A stretch of DNA of 7,760 bases from a bacterium (GTDB taxonomy: Bacteria; UBP15; UBA6099; JAJRTR01). Made by a program: the position numbers and the translations under genes. Shown one piece after another: positions 2,315-7,720 of the stretch (the stretch's first letter is position 1; each line of letters begins with the position of its first letter). The DNA is taken from assembly GCA_024278215.1 (NCBI GenBank), contig JAJRTR010000185.1:1-7760 (forward strand), read 5' to 3'. The notes under the pieces are model-generated. The model saw nothing but the letters and a program-made list of their open reading frames with translations. It was not told where the DNA came from and made no database searches.

Positions 2315-2350
2315 CAATTGCATCAAAAGCAAAGGGGGCACACATTTTTC

Positions 2351-3010
2351 ATGACGTGCAATAAAATGAAAAAACCCACTGTCCCCGGGCCGGTCGTCAT
2401 TGCAGCGGGCATCGTATGCATTGCCTTTTTTCTTTTTCACAGTGTGTTTTCAGCAAAAATGAATTCCATCACGGCAGATGAATACGTGCATCTGCCTGTG
2501 GCGATATCAATACTGCAGACGGGAAACATGTTTATCGACCACACCGGCTCGCCGCCCCTGAGGGCGCTGGCGGGCATACCGGCGCTGATGTCCGCGCCCG
2601 TGATGGATTATGACAACAGCTTCTGGCGCGAAGGCAAAACTTATAAGTTTTCGTGGCTGTTCATGAAGAACAATTTTTCAAGGTATCACAGTCTGTACTT
2701 CCTTCCGCGCCTTCTGATAAGCGGCTTTGCCGTATTGCTGGGGCTGCTGGTGTTCCTCCACACGAAGCGGCTGTGGGGTTGGAGCGCGGTTCCATTCGCA
2801 TTCCTTTTATTTTTCTTCAATCCCGAGATACTCGCGCATGGCGCGCTCGTCACGGTTGACCTTCTCGTCGCTTGTTTTTTTTTGCGTCGTTTCATTTTTT
2901 CATTCTTTTTCTACGCAGGTCCACATGGGTTTACTGCCTGTTGTGCGGCGTCTCCATGGGGCTTGCTCTTCTCGCTAAATTCACTGCCGTTATACTCCCG
3001 CCTGTCATAA
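2351..3010 (+). CDS. GT39-like membrane glycosyltransferase, N-terminal part (frameshifted gene, 5' reading frame)
   Basis: This frame encodes the first part of a polytopic GT-C fold glycosyltransferase, the type that transfers a sugar from a polyprenyl-phosphate donor on the outer face of the membrane. Visible features are a first membrane helix at about residues 14-34, then ITADEYVHLP (40-49) with the acidic pair expected after helix 1 of GT39/PMT-like enzymes. Next come SPPL (67-70), matching the family's PPL motif, then LPRLLISGFAVLLGLLVF and NPEILAHGALVTVD (157-170), a conserved stretch in this family. After residue 177 (T run at 2875-2883) the frame loses family resemblance and stops at 3008-3010; the true continuation is in another frame. 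The ATG at 2351 is chosen for AAGGGGG ending 12 bases upstream. The ATG at 2366 (MKKPTV) is possible, and a TTG at 2318 is less likely. Only the first 177 or so residues are likely genuine. Confidence 0.75.
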   Translation: MTCNKMKKPTVPGPVVIAAGIVCIAFFLFHSVFSAKMNSITADEYVHLPVAISILQTGNMFIDHTGSPPLRALAGIPALMSAPVMDYDNSFWREGKTYKFSWLFMKNNFSRYHSLYFLPRLLISGFAVLLGLLVFLHTKRLWGWSAVPFAFLLFFFNPEILAHGALVTVDLLVACFFLRRFIFSFFFYAGPHGFTACCAASPWGLLFSLNSLPLYSRLS

Positions 3011-4101
3011 TTCTGATTCTGCTGCTTTTCCTGTTTTCACGCGAATATCGCGCCGGCAGAGCACGCCTGCCGCGGCTCGCCGCCGGGACAGTTGCCGCTA
3101 TCCTTGTTTCTCTTCTGGTGCTGAACGCGGGATACCTTTTCAACAGTACTGGAAAAACCTTGCAAGAGACTCCGGCGGCAGCGTCTCCGGGGGACTTTTC
3201 TTTCGGCGATCAGAATAATGCGACATCGACCGAGGAAATACGGTGGCGCAGCAACGCCATGCAATCACTGCGCAAGTCATTTCTCGGAGATGTGCCGATG
3301 CCGTTTCCGATTCTATATCTTCACGGCATCGACAAGCAGTTGTTTAAAAGCAACATACCGGTTTTTACATATTTTCTGAATGGAAAGTTGTCTGCTAAAG
3401 GGTGGGCGTTGTATTACCCCGAAGCGTTCGCACTGAAAACTCCGATCCCTCTTTTGATCCTGCTGATAGTCGCCGCAGGCTTTATGTTCGCAGGCCGGAG
3501 CAGTTTCTACGAACGCATTCTGTGGCTCGTGCCTGTCGTTTTCATGATTCAATTCACTTTTTTTGCGCGCGTCGATCTGGGGCTGCGTTACCTGCTTCCG
3601 ATCGTACCTTTCCTGATCGTTATCTGCGCCGGGGCGATGTCGAAAGTAATCAGATATGGAAGCTATGCAAAGTTCGCGGCAGTCGCGTTGTGCCTGTGGT
3701 ACGCCGGTTCGATATTCACGACATTCGGAAACGGCCTTGCGTACTTCAACGAGTTCGCGGGCGGCCCCGGTGGCGGACACAGGTATCTCGTCGAGTCCAA
3801 TCTGGACTGGGGCCAGAACCTTGTGCGGCTCAAAATGTATACGGAGAATATTGACGCGTCGCCTCTGCTCGTATACAACTACGGGCTTGTGCCCCCTGCG
3901 GCATACGGCATAAAGTCCGGTTGGGTGCCCTGCAAGCCGGAGGCGGCGGTAGTCGCGATAAGTGTCAATTATCTGTATGGTGTCGACCCGTTCGAGAAGA
4001 GACCGCGCGCGTGCTTCAAGTGGCTGCGGCAGCGAGAACCGGTGAGAATAATCGGCGACGGTTTATTTGTCTATGACATGCGAAAAGAATCGAAAGACTG
4101 A
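2872..4101 (+). CDS. GT39-like membrane glycosyltransferase, C-terminal part (frameshifted gene, 3' reading frame)
   Basis: This frame resumes the protein begun at 2351; the joined product would be about 580 residues, a normal size for this family. The 409-residue reading includes GVSMGLALLAKFTAVILPP (27-44), the conserved helix after the AHG..VT.D stretch, then several further membrane helices. VDLGLRYLLPIVPFL (234-248) matches the family's G-x-RY-x-LP motif. YFNEFAGGPGGGHRYLVESN (291-310), followed directly by LDWGQNL, is a hallmark of a bacterial subgroup annotated as phospholipid carrier-dependent or family 39 glycosyltransferases. The tail is soluble and ends in a short basic stretch. 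The TTG at 2872 is merely the first possible start in the frame; I see no evidence it is used. Everything downstream of the shift is well conserved with no further stop, so the break is recent, a sequencing or assembly error, or recoded. Acceptor and donor sugar are unknown. It converges with the DUF4127 gene, with 115 bases between the two stops. Confidence 0.8.
   Translation: MFFFASFHFFILFLRRSTWVYCLLCGVSMGLALLAKFTAVILPPVIILILLLFLFSREYRAGRARLPRLAAGTVAAILVSLLVLNAGYLFNSTGKTLQETPAAASPGDFSFGDQNNATSTEEIRWRSNAMQSLRKSFLGDVPMPFPILYLHGIDKQLFKSNIPVFTYFLNGKLSAKGWALYYPEAFALKTPIPLLILLIVAAGFMFAGRSSFYERILWLVPVVFMIQFTFFARVDLGLRYLLPIVPFLIVICAGAMSKVIRYGSYAKFAAVALCLWYAGSIFTTFGNGLAYFNEFAGGPGGGHRYLVESNLDWGQNLVRLKMYTENIDASPLLVYNYGLVPPAAYGIKSGWVPCKPEAAVVAISVNYLYGVDPFEKRPRACFKWLRQREPVRIIGDGLFVYDMRKESKD
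2875..2883 (+). other. Run of nine T where the glycosyltransferase reading frame shifts by -1
   Basis: The upstream frame reads TGT TTT TTT TTG across the run, while the downstream frame reads TTT GCG from 2881. One extra T (ten) or two fewer (seven) would join the two frames. The phasing T TTT TTT also fits a slippery heptamer for -1 ribosomal frameshifting, and a T run of this length can cause polymerase slippage. The shift must lie after 2859, because TGA at 2857-2859 closes the downstream frame, and before 3008. Confidence 0.7.
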
Positions 4102-4216: not shown

Positions 4217-5731
4217 TCAGTCTGCTACCTCACCAAACTGCGCAAATATCAGTTCCGTTTCGATTATTGTCTCAAAAAACCTGTTCCACGGAAAAACAGC
4301 ACTTCTGATTGTGCCGGAATCCGGAACCGCAACATATTTCCCCGAGGGGTCTACCGGAAGAGTCCTGTTTATAAAAAACGTACTCATCATTTTTTGAAGT
4401 TCCGAGTCGCACTCTTCAACCAGAATTCTCTCAGCTTCCTCACGATTTGAAATATCCAGTTTGTCTCCGGTTGAGGAGATTATGTTCGGCCTGACTTTTG
4501 TGGAATACAAATAATCTTCCAGCAGTCTGTCCGTCAAGAAGTTGAACCTGCACCGGAGGCGCTTTTTCTGCGATAAATTTCCGTTACCCGATAATCCTGC
4601 CGCACATTGGGCTATGACTGTTCCACTGCTGTTTGCCGTAGTATTCCAACCAGCATAAGCGGCAAGCCGGAAAAAGAGTTGGCGCTCGAGCAGACTTTCT
4701 ATCAGTTCGGGAGATGAGCCATTGATATTTTCCGCATCTACGAGACCGACAGTTCTTGATTTATTCAGGTGATTCTGAAGATTTTCGATCAGCTTTTCAG
4801 ATGGTGTCGCCGATTCGTCGCCGCTTTTTTCATTCTCGATCTGTTCCAGGAATAAATCTTTTTGTTTTGTCCCGACGTTGGGCATGTGTGCCATGAGGAC
4901 AAAGTCCGAACAATCGGGAAAGCTTGCGATACGACCGCCCGCGGCCCGGACCTGTAGCCGTAGATTCTCTTCGAGCGAAAGCGGCTCATAGAGTGGCGTC
5001 GTCTCTAAAATACTCTGCTCGATGTCGAAGAAAAAAGACGGTGTAAGATTATATATGTCAGCCGCGGCGCGGGCGATCATGAGACAGGCGAGTTCGTCGG
5101 CACCCGAAAGCACAATCGTTTTTCGTTCGCCGAAGCTGAAGGCGTCGTCATTCAGCGATTCGAGTTCTCCGCCGTGAGGATTGCCTGCGGCAGTGTCTTC
5201 TTTGCCGATAACGAGGAAGTCGAATAAGCCGTCGCCTGCGAGTCTGACAGCGAGTCTGTTGACAGAAAGATTTCGTTTCCTTATTATGCCGGATTCGACG
5301 GTGGAACGGCTTTTTCCGTCCATCTGTTTTTTCCAGTTGCCGAACGACGATTCGTCGGACGCGGTTATTGCGTCCCGCAGAACAGTCGAGAAAGCATACA
5401 TTTTCAGGGCGGGTTTGTTTTTCCTGAGTTCCCTGAAATAGTTGAAAACTTTGAGAGCTGTGATTTCATTTGCAGTATCCGGTAACCTCGATTGTACGAG
5501 TCCGCCGTACACGATCATGTCGCATGAAATAATAATAGCATCTACAGGTTGTTCGAGCCGGCTGTCGAGCCATGCGAAAACCGCGTCGCGTGCGGCGGGC
5601 GAGTCCAGCGTGCCGAGTATATCAAGCGGCGGCATGATAAGTTCGAACCCGGCAAGCGCGGCCATTCGCGCCGGCAACCGGGTGCTTGCGGGGCGGCTGT
5701 CCATCGGCAGCAACACAAGTCTTTTATTCAT
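4217..5731 (-). CDS. DUF4127 family protein
   Basis: A 504-residue protein of unknown biochemical function that matches the DUF4127 family in length and N-terminal signature. The start [14 protein letters not shown] (5-18) corresponds to the family's LPLDxRP opening, and [16 protein letters not shown] (67-82) to its S-x-D-M-x-x-YGGL-x-x-SR motif. A later [14 protein letters not shown] stretch is equivalent to the family's G-x-D-D segment. Conserved Asp, Arg and Glu side chains suggest an active or metal site, but this is inference. There is no signal peptide and no membrane helix. The frame stays open upstream to 5896, but ATG at 5731 is chosen because the family motif begins five residues later. 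It is preceded by a GGGGCG stretch and overlaps the end of lspA by 8 bases (ATGAATAA). Translation is therefore probably coupled to lspA. The C-terminal third is less conserved-looking. Family call is from memory of the motifs. Confidence 0.85.
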
Positions 5732-6230
5732 CTTTTTCGCCCCGTAAAATAAAGAAGAATGCAAAGAGGAAAGTGCCGATGACGATGAAAGAATCCGCTG
5801 CGTTGAACGTAGGCCAGTGCATGGTCCCGACATAGACGTCGATAAAATCGAAAACCTTTCCGGCGTGCAGCCTGTCGATAAGGTTGCCGAGCGCACCGCC
5901 CAGCATCAGCGATACGCCCGCCATTGCAGGCAGGTCATTACCACTATACTTGAAAAGAATTACAATCATCGCCATGACAAGAACGACCGGGATATAAATG
6001 GAGTACGGCTGCGCGCCCTGGAACATCCCGAATGCAACACCTGTGTTGAATGTATGCACGATTGAAACGAATCCCGGAATTATTACAAGTTCTTCGCCGC
6101 CTCGTGAATTCATAAAATTCTGCGTGGCATATTTTGTGTACTGGTCGAACGCTACGGCTGCTATGCTGATCGCAAAAAAAAGAACCACAGACTTATTTGT
6201 TTTTATTTTTTGTTCGGTCATTTCGGTCAT
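5724..6230 (-). CDS. lspA: Lipoprotein signal peptidase (signal peptidase II)
   Basis: LspA is the inner-membrane aspartyl protease that removes the signal peptide from diacylglyceryl-modified prolipoproteins just before the lipidated cysteine. At 168 residues it has the usual length and four membrane segments (about 14-33, 75-94, 103-117 and 147-163). All signature blocks are visible: DQYTKYA (29-35), [10 protein letters not shown] (61-70), [20 protein letters not shown] (111-130) and [13 protein letters not shown] (140-152). By comparison with known LspA structures, the catalytic aspartates are D128 and D146. Two ATG codons lie in a perfect tandem 9-bp duplication (6213-6221 and 6222-6230), encoding MTEMTE, so the start is either 6230 or 6221. 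Neither has a clear Shine-Dalgarno site. A promoter candidate ends only five bases upstream of the first ATG. It is the first gene of a unit with the DUF4127 gene. Confidence 0.97.
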
Positions 6231-6235
6231 TGTGG

Positions 6236-6264
6236 ATTATATATTAAAACAATGTTTGAGCCAA
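6236..6264 (-). promoter_or_regulatory. Candidate sigma70-type promoter for lspA
   Basis: On the minus strand, TTGGCT (6264-6259, four of six consensus bases) is followed after exactly 17 bases by a perfect TATAAT (6241-6236). The expected start of transcription, six to eight bases further, falls at 6230-6228, that is on the first lspA ATG. The -35 hexamer lies inside the end of the palindromic element at 6258-6436, while the -10 lies outside it. Confidence 0.5.
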
Positions 6265-6436
6265 TTGCAAAATTCTGATTCGGCTACGGTCGGCTGCAAT
6301 TGTCAACAGCTGCGTTGTCGGCACAAAATCTTCCTCGACGTACTCTACAAGTACGCCTGCGGGGATTTTGCACACCCGCCTTGCTTCTGACCAATTTCGC
6401 TCGACCTCGCTTCGAACATAATTTTACAACTGGCTC
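6258..6436. repeat. 179-bp imperfect palindrome with 20-bp inverted ends (MITE/REP-like element)
   Basis: The whole stretch is symmetric about base 6347. The ends are GAGCCAATTGCAAAATTCTG (6258-6277) and, read on the other strand, GAGCCAGTTGTAAAATTATG (6436-6417), identical at 17 of 20 positions. Further paired blocks along the arms are GGTCG and AATTG, then CAAAATC/GATTTTG (6324-6330 with 6364-6370), and CGTAC/GTACG (6339-6343 with 6351-6355) around a 7-base centre. By hand count about 49 of 89 arm positions pair without gaps, and short gaps would add more. GTTT flanks both ends directly (6254-6257 and 6437-6440), which fits a 4-bp target duplication. No convincing reading frame is contained. 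It could be a non-autonomous mobile element, a dispersed palindromic repeat, or a structured RNA; copies elsewhere cannot be seen here. Confidence 0.75.
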
Positions 6437-6676
6437 GTTTATAAAAATGAAATGCCTTACTGTTTTGGTTGTGGCTGAGTATGTTGTCGCTACGAAATGA
6501 TATTGTGAATGAGAAAACGATCAGTCTGTGAGCTGCCAGGGTGAACCTTGGGAACGATGATTTACATAAACAGTGGGAACGATAACCGGGTGAAACGATG
6601 GATACTATTAAAGGGGAATATCGAATAGCAAACAAAGGATGAAGAAAGCAACAGATGTGCGGATAAACTTCTTGCG
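6437..6676. other. Non-coding upstream region of the C39-like gene
   Basis: Together with 6231-6436 this forms a 446-bp gap between the divergent lspA and peptidase genes. It contains no convincing gene and no clear promoter. It does hold the decamer TGGGAACGAT twice (6549-6558 and 6574-6583, 25 bases apart) and the core AACGAT also at 6516-6521 and 6594-6599. These could be operator sites or chance. Two very short reading frames near the right end are described separately. Confidence 0.4.
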
Positions 6677-6680
6677 ATGA
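6598..6680 (+). other. Two short reading frames chained by ATGA overlaps ahead of the peptidase gene
   Basis: ATG at 6598 opens a 14-codon frame (MDTIKGEYRIANKG) whose stop at 6640-6642 overlaps the next ATG at 6639. That one opens a 13-codon frame (MKKATDVRINFLR) whose stop at 6678-6680 overlaps the peptidase ATG at 6677. No strong Shine-Dalgarno site is seen before 6598, and the overlaps may be chance. Confidence 0.2.
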
Positions 6681-7720
6681 AACGAATACAAATGCCATAT
6701 AGCGGAAAGCACGGGCTGGTCGCCTGCGATCTGACGGTATCCGCGCCGCCCGGCATATACGGGAATACCGTGTACGGCAGGGGTGTGCTGCCCGGCCGCG
6801 AATGCGGGATGTTTGTGCGCGAAAGCGAATTCACATCAAACGCTGTCAGGATGGAATTCGCGTCGGACGAACTCGTGATGACCTGGAATGCTACCGCACC
6901 GCCCGGCACATCAGTCAGTATGGCATTTGCTGTGAGCGACGATGCGGAGAACTGGTCGAAGTGGTTTGAAATGGGAGACTGGAAAACCGACACAGCACGG
7001 GAAAGGCAGTGCGCCGACCGTGACTGGGGTAAACTGTCGGTTGATCATTTCAGGTCGGTCGGGAAGTTCCGGTTTGCGAAATACCGCGCAATATTTCACA
7101 CTGCCGATCCGAGCCAGGCACCACTGCTGAGACGTGTTTTCTTCTGCCACTCTGATGTAAAAAGCGGTGGCGACTGTGAGGCGGCAACATACGCGGGCAC
7201 CAGCGTCGACCTGGATGTGCCGTGGTTGTCGCAATATGACGAGCGGGTAGTGAAGGACCCTGTTATGATGGATGCGGGTGTGTGCGGTGCGACGTCTGTT
7301 GCGATGGTGCTCAGGTATCACGGAATAGCGGCAAACGTGCGTAATGTGGGACGCCGCGCATGGGACCCGTCGGCGGAAATATACGGCAACTGGGCTTTTC
7401 TGTGCGCCGCGGCTTCAGAGTACGGACCGGCGGCGTGGGTGCAGCGCTTTTCAGACTGGAGCAGTGTGCGGGAGTTTCTGGAAAGTGGGATTCCTGTCGT
7501 GATCAGTATATCCTATAATAAAGGTACTATGAGCTCCGAACCTGAAAAGGAAACGGCGGGGCACCTGATTGTCGTGCGCGGATTCACTGGAGACGGGGAC
7601 GTAATTGTGAATGATCCCGGCACGACAGACGAGCAGCGGGGAAGAAGATATGTGTATCCGGCGTGTGAATTGGGCCGTGCTTTTTTCGGTCATGGCGGCG
7701 TTGGTATTATAATTAAGTGA
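6677..7720 (+). CDS. C39-like papain-fold cysteine peptidase with N-terminal beta-rich domain
   Basis: A 347-residue two-part protein. Residues 175-347 form a peptidase_C39_2-type domain: VDLDVPWLSQYDE (177-189) with Q186 as likely oxyanion-hole residue, DAGVCGATSVAMVLRYHG (199-216) with candidate nucleophile C203, then AGHLIVVRGF (294-303) with H296 and VNDPGT (311-316) with D313 completing the triad. Residues 1-170 lack catalytic motifs and look beta-rich. LVMTWNATAPPGTSVSMAFA followed by WSKWFEMGDW (93-102) resembles the front domain of many secreted or surface C39-family proteins in bacteria, which may bind ligand or substrate. I see no signal peptide or membrane helix, so the protein as read would stay in the cytoplasm unless exported in another way. 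The ATG at 6677 is the first in-frame start after a stop at 6626-6628; it has no good Shine-Dalgarno site, and ATG at 6692 is an alternative. It has no ABC-transporter domain, so it is not a bacteriocin exporter. Substrate is unknown. Confidence 0.82.
   Translation: MKRIQMPYSGKHGLVACDLTVSAPPGIYGNTVYGRGVLPGRECGMFVRESEFTSNAVRMEFASDELVMTWNATAPPGTSVSMAFAVSDDAENWSKWFEMGDWKTDTARERQCADRDWGKLSVDHFRSVGKFRFAKYRAIFHTADPSQAPLLRRVFFCHSDVKSGGDCEAATYAGTSVDLDVPWLSQYDERVVKDPVMMDAGVCGATSVAMVLRYHGIAANVRNVGRRAWDPSAEIYGNWAFLCAAASEYGPAAWVQRFSDWSSVREFLESGIPVVISISYNKGTMSSEPEKETAGHLIVVRGFTGDGDVIVNDPGTTDEQRGRRYVYPACELGRAFFGHGGVGIIIK

Follow-up and report, generated by a model that had tools for sequence, protein, structure and literature searches.

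A palindromic miniature transposable element upstream of lspA carries a strand-polar inner hairpin that recurs on other mobile ends in several phyla

RESULTS

Main finding

Positions 6258 to 6436 of the window (the whole 7,760-nucleotide stretch of DNA analyzed here) are one copy of a MITE, a non-coding imperfect palindrome of 179 bp. Very probably, this family is best read as a non-autonomous transposable element with a conserved, strand-polar inner hairpin that outlives the ends on which it is carried. The evidence comes from the anatomy and fold of the window copy, from several hundred copies in the source genome, and from relatives in other phyla that have the same folded center between different terminal repeats.

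Anatomy and fold of the element

The element is too short to encode a transposase, and only chance open reading frames cross it. The initial annotation described 20-bp ends with three differences, and GAGCCAATTGCAAAATTCTG and GAGCCAGTTGTAAAATTATG do mismatch at 3 of 20 positions. The GTTT that it saw on both sides lies at 6254 to 6257 and at 6437 to 6440, and we read these as the left and right copies of the 4-bp target-site duplication, based on the sequence and on other copies that are flanked by different 4-bp repeats. Its borders are the true element borders, as genomic copies align over positions 9 to 187 of a query spanning 6250 to 6444, which corresponds to 6258 to 6436. Within them, the left terminal inverted repeat is GAGCCAATTGCAAAAT (6258 to 6273, plus strand), and the right one, which reads GAGCCAGTTGTAAAAT inward (6421 to 6436, minus strand), is defined by the sequence and the genomic copies.

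Almost the whole unit had been said to fold on itself, and we found one long hairpin for the plus strand with 10-nt flanks, at -59.2 kcal/mol compared to -43.1 kcal/mol for shuffled sequences (z -4.8; 0 of 200 shuffles as good), so the contrary outcome of a fold lacking any long hairpin did not arise. As RNA, the minus strand folds far better than the plus strand (-79.7 kcal/mol, z -8.0, versus -57.7 kcal/mol), and DNA parameters give -41.2 for the minus strand and -30.8 for the plus strand, so we assign the copy to the minus strand. A structured inner part common to several phyla occupies 6294 to 6396 on that strand, where covariance model R1 (see below), which has the window element itself among its 26 building sequences, scores 75 bits (E 6.8e-20). 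At its center, the plus strand reads TCGACGTACT-loop-AGTACGCC, and the minus strand forms the core hairpin GGCGTACT-loop-AGTACGTC with one G.U pair (6335 to 6357), which is marked out by covariation (alignment A3) and by its occurrence with other termini in other genomes.

Copy number and mobility in the source genome

We searched the source genome (4.55 Mb in 207 contigs) for the element. All 40 scored matches (at least 40 copies, from 477 candidates) were full or nearly full, at 91 to 100% identity, so the sequence is multicopy and not the single-copy intergenic DNA that the initial annotation had named as the contrary outcome. Copies have the ends GAGCCA...TGGCTC in common and differ from one another by small insertions and deletions. 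The terminal pattern GAGCCANTTGCAAAAT, with at most two mismatches, had 731 matches in the genome compared to 2 for a control pattern, which corresponds to approximately 365 elements with identical borders, or roughly 1.4% of the genome.

Two samples totaling 756 kb (17% of the genome) contained 63 full copies, 60 of them with both flanks. Flanking repeats were identical at 40 of these 60 sites (37 of 4 bp and 3 of 5 bp), another 11 matched at three of four positions, and the repeated sequence varied from site to site. All sampled copies with scorable context were intergenic. Terminal repeat pairs with equal 4-bp flanks in the same 756 kb were 178 to 181 bp long in 33 cases and 162 bp in one, with two mini elements of 46 and 48 bp; two longer pairs had 4 to 5 mismatches per end and are attributed to chance. 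Since the mini elements do not contain the inner part, the ends suffice for mobility. Thus, hundreds of copies, fixed termini, and site-variable 4-bp duplications support the initial reading of a palindromic miniature transposable element flanked by a short duplication, and we infer that the element is mobile from the duplications and the copy number. The full element was found in none of six same-order genomes searched, and the 179-bp sequence had no match in a comparison to plasmids.

Mini-palindromes of 36 to 48 bp, which hold little beyond two terminal repeats and have identical 4-bp flanks, are located at L204:16952-16997, L251:8779-8826, and L284:6384-6419. Weaker elements with other end types also seem to be present in the source genome at L209:7781-7884 and L201:11512-11615, and the one at L209 adjoins a CCCGCATATTTCACC end.

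Candidate transposases for the GAGCCA ends

Neither the 756 kb of sampled sequence (17% of the genome) nor the surroundings of the source genome's three DDE_Tnp_1 genes yielded an autonomous partner with GAGCCA ends, and these genes were rejected as partners because they have no such ends. We also considered whether the family is a REP/BIME or TIRYT system, that is, a set of palindromes moved by Y1 (RAYT-type) tyrosine transposases. Long terminal inverted repeats adjoining RAYT genes have been described (PMC3733652), and three of the six Y1 genes in the source genome have an element or half-element just upstream, which is a suggestive arrangement. At L153:1312-1968, the start of a REP-associated tyrosine transposase gene (NF047646, 96 bits) lies 42 bp away from a partial element made up of the left 52 bp (96% identity, right half absent), and two further RAYT genes have diverged copies just upstream. 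However, the Y1 loci examined in five other carrier genomes have no element linked to them, and three of eight carriers searched, including the complete Nitrospira moscoviensis genome, had no Y1 match. The target duplications at 40 of 60 copies also argue against this mode of movement, as HUH/Y1 transposition is not known to create them. We therefore regard a Y1-driven system as highly improbable, and the large REP/BIME-like repeat offered as an alternative in the initial annotation was dropped on these grounds together with the 179-bp unit and its duplicating terminal repeats.

The inner part recurs on other ends in other phyla

A search of 60 other genomes with the whole element, with no motif chosen, hit two genomes, with the alignment lying mostly over the center, and the matched sequences turned out to be complete palindromes with different ends. 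A core-pattern search of named genomes gave more than 100 places among the matches listed, though the pattern is loose enough that approximately 50 chance matches are expected (estimated from base counts) and single matches mean little. At many of these places, the palindrome is complete, and the arms score 25 to 43 compared to a control mean of 9. Carriers include Nitrospira, Gamma- and Deltaproteobacteria, Acidobacteriota, Planctomycetota, Hydrogenedentota, Aegiribacteria, and others. The core-bearing elements found elsewhere are similar in size and have different ends of several types, among them CTAG followed by CCCGCAT..TCAC, GAGGCTCTAACAAAA, and GAAGTCATCCCAAAACC. Model R1, built from 26 divergent elements in the minus-strand sense, matched 36 of 386 sampled genomes (approximately 9%) at E ≤0.001, usually with several copies in each. 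The presence of the same hairpin on different terminal repeats indicates that the inner cassette outlives the ends and is able to work with more than one transposase.

When the window element was compared with its relatives, raw identity was 0.55 for inner arms, 0.57 for outer arms, and 0.52 for shuffled inner arms, so the inner part is not the more similar one by this measure. Conservation therefore lies in short blocks and pairing, and that of the core is partly by construction, since the first relatives were picked by core sequence and 28 new ones by the model built from them. A stricter version of the core pattern had no match in viral contigs, and a looser version had six, mostly weak; two element-model matches were seen on an IMG/VR contig labeled viral (L144:760-860 and 5439-5539). 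An apparent 1.3-kb terminal repeat pair at L194 was rejected, as it consists of two decayed elements flanking a radical-SAM-like gene.

One of these end types, CTAG followed by CCCGCATTTCTCAC, is the end of IS1380-family insertion sequences, and judging from the sequences, the partner of the CTAG-type elements is an IS1380-family element. In genome G288, the right end of an IS1380 element, CCCGCATTTCTCACCA, is identical at 16 of 16 positions to the MITE ends of that genome, and its transposase matches NF033539 at 391 bits. Its left end has been lost, apparently via an IS3-like insertion, and the insertion sequence inside the remaining end is, by eye, unlike the MITE interior. An IS3-like end abuts the start of this transposase gene (L295:1000-1500). 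On plasmids of Stutzerimonas and Bradyrhizobium, intact elements annotated as IS1380 have ends of the type CTAG followed by CCCGCATTTCTCACAG. Relatives at L212 and L216 have CCCGCAT-type ends with CTAG/YTAR duplications, as expected of IS1380-derived MITEs, and the window family, with GAGCCA ends and varied duplications, does not. An IS701 transposase (PF13546) was rejected as the CTAG-type partner, being absent from 8 of 10 carriers, including the source genome, and only weakly matched in the remaining two. Genome G061, which carries dozens of CTAG-type elements, had no match to the DDE_Tnp_1 profile PF01609. The sole IS1380 match in the source genome, a fragment beside an element copy at L149, was also rejected, as it is a short relic with no matching end.

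Covariation and strand polarity of the fold

In an alignment of 33 R1 matches, 93.3% of cells pair compared to 74.4% in shuffled controls, two-sided changes occur in 86 cells compared to 24.8 (sd 3.9) in shuffled and 2 to 20 in slid controls, and the covariation score is 0.491 versus 0.155; the alignment was fitted to the model and so leans toward its structure, while the shuffled controls do not remove relatedness and the slid controls keep it. The core stem varies with compensation (GGCGUAG/CUACGUC, GGCAUACU/AGUAUGUU, and GGCGUAUU/AAUACGUC). At one core pair, 26 sequences have G.U, 4 have G-C, and 2 have A-U, and the opposite strand would read the G.U pair as an A.C mismatch.

We also found that the two strands are not equivalent. 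Of the 30 divergent elements compared, 29 fold better in the minus sense, and 28 still do so when the core is masked by putting a symmetric hairpin in its place (difference of 11 kcal/mol on average; Wilcoxon p 4e-6; n=30). The same strand is better in 27 of 28 loci found by the model only (p 1e-7). Transition-type mismatches alone show a weak bias (105 versus 77, p 0.045), and thus purine-rich mismatches account for part of the polarity.

These observations bear on whether the shared core could reflect ancestry only, with all such MITEs descending from one old MITE and the fold having no present function. The low raw identity of the inner arms fits such a history, as do the possible recombination of ends and cassette and the probable movement of the elements between species. 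Neutral decay, however, is not expected to leave strong two-sided covariation or a polarity in 27 of 28 model-found loci, nor to keep one pair as G.U, G-C, or A-U on one strand only. On balance, shared ancestry contributes to the polarity and covariation, and ancestry alone is an unlikely explanation, albeit one that deserves serious attention. We infer instead that selection acts on the fold, with RNA or single-stranded DNA as the acting form.

Position of the window copy and orientation of other copies

Profile matches agree with the initial placement of the element between lspA and a divergent peptidase gene: lspA (signal peptidase II; 5724 to 6230, minus strand) matches TIGR00077 (109 bits) and PF01252, and the C39-like peptidase gene (6677 to 7720, plus strand) matches PF13529 (E 6e-22). 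The element lies upstream of lspA, 27 bp from its start. A possible hybrid promoter directed toward lspA (6236 to 6264, minus strand) takes its -35 box, TTGGCT, from the element end and its -10 box, TATAAT, from the flank; it is a consensus match only, at 10 of 12 positions with 0.9 chance hits expected in the region, and its closeness to the lspA start codon may keep it from being used. A search of viral contigs gave no lspA relatives.

A DUF4127 gene (4217 to 5737) immediately follows lspA in the same orientation, and the two may form an operon with the element just upstream. A membrane glycosyltransferase-like gene at 2318 to 4101 (PMT_2 match in its second part) is present as two overlapping frames, and the split near a T run at approximately 2874 to 2882 could be a frameshift, a sequence error, or a pseudogene.

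With genes called by a simple script and not by a standard gene finder, the downstream gene in the source genome is co-directional with the better-folding strand in 43 of 57 cases (p 1.5e-4). This bias would fit a hairpin that is a cis-acting RNA leader or terminator kept by host genes, with mobility incidental. Among 70 foreign loci, however, the trend is opposite, with 27 co-directional and 43 not, so a general mRNA-leader role is unsupported outside the source genome, and a leader function based on orientation was rejected. In addition, no terminator-like site was found, and the copies are far too many and too recent-looking for host-kept leaders. We consider this explanation improbable and return to a mobile element with its own conserved hairpin.

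DISCUSSION

Proposed mechanism and meaning

In our model, which follows from the anatomy of the copies, a putative transposase acting in trans would recognize the terminal repeats of roughly 16 bp that begin GAGCCA, and would cut the target with a 4-bp stagger to give the 4-bp duplication. The interior of the element does not derive from a decayed transposase gene and instead carries the conserved strand-polar hairpin that is also seen in similar-sized elements with other ends in other phyla, including those with IS1380-family ends. The hairpin most likely acts as one-strand RNA or single-stranded DNA in multiplication or tolerance of the element. The insertion 27 bp upstream of lspA may have contributed a -35 box, which could affect that gene.

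The usual view of a MITE is that of a decaying remainder of a single insertion sequence. In the present case, approximately 9% of sampled genomes contain a covarying, strand-polar inner fold, which is carried by two or more kinds of ends. Should the fold be under selection, a non-autonomous element could harbor a functional nucleic-acid module that changes from one transposase to another, and the role of the module can be tested directly with the IS1380-type members in laboratory hosts. A broader view, which we put forward tentatively as possible rather than probable, is that many bacterial phyla share a class of mobile hairpins, structured as RNA or single-stranded DNA, that are selected for their fold and ride on unrelated transposase ends, with the inner hairpin and not the ends as the lasting unit.

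Comparison with known systems

In the Rfam scan, no family passed its curated threshold in the window, and the elements in 12 loci were without a match even when E was relaxed to 0.5. A limited search of the open-license literature gave MITE reviews, work on REP and TIRtron repeats, and IS1380 papers; we found no description of the cross-phylum core, though one may exist elsewhere, and the hits to core 8-mers in paper text were all primers or coincidental strings. ERIC (127 bp) and the 168-bp enterobacterial repeats (RU-1 and RU-2; PMC2759123) are also mid-sized intergenic mobile repeats of similar length, but they were described from enterobacteria, and our sequence comparison with them is the Rfam scan only. 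REP/BIME and TIRtron repeats (PMC3733652) are likewise palindromic, intergenic, and high in copy number, and the source genome has RAYT genes. However, a REP/BIME unit is defined as a 20- to 40-bp palindrome with a GTAG or CGTC tag (PMC3733652), and the window unit is 179 bp, with terminal inverted repeats and target duplications, and Y1 genes are unlinked to it in other carriers. Many core relatives resemble IS1380-family elements (NF033539) in having IS1380 ends and 4-bp CTAG/YTAR duplications, but the window family has GAGCCA ends rather than CCCGCAT, and the MITE interior is not IS1380 sequence. The window element is thus a MITE whose family we assign to neither IS1380 nor REP. It shares with prokaryotic MITEs (PMC10969869) its short non-coding sequence, terminal inverted repeats, target duplications, high copy number, and intergenic location. 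It differs from them in that the unit is almost wholly palindromic, the partner search over the 756 kb and around the DDE_Tnp_1 genes was negative, and the inner hairpin covaries and is found across phyla with different ends. This recurrence of a folded center on different mobile ends suggests that the fold itself has an undescribed job.
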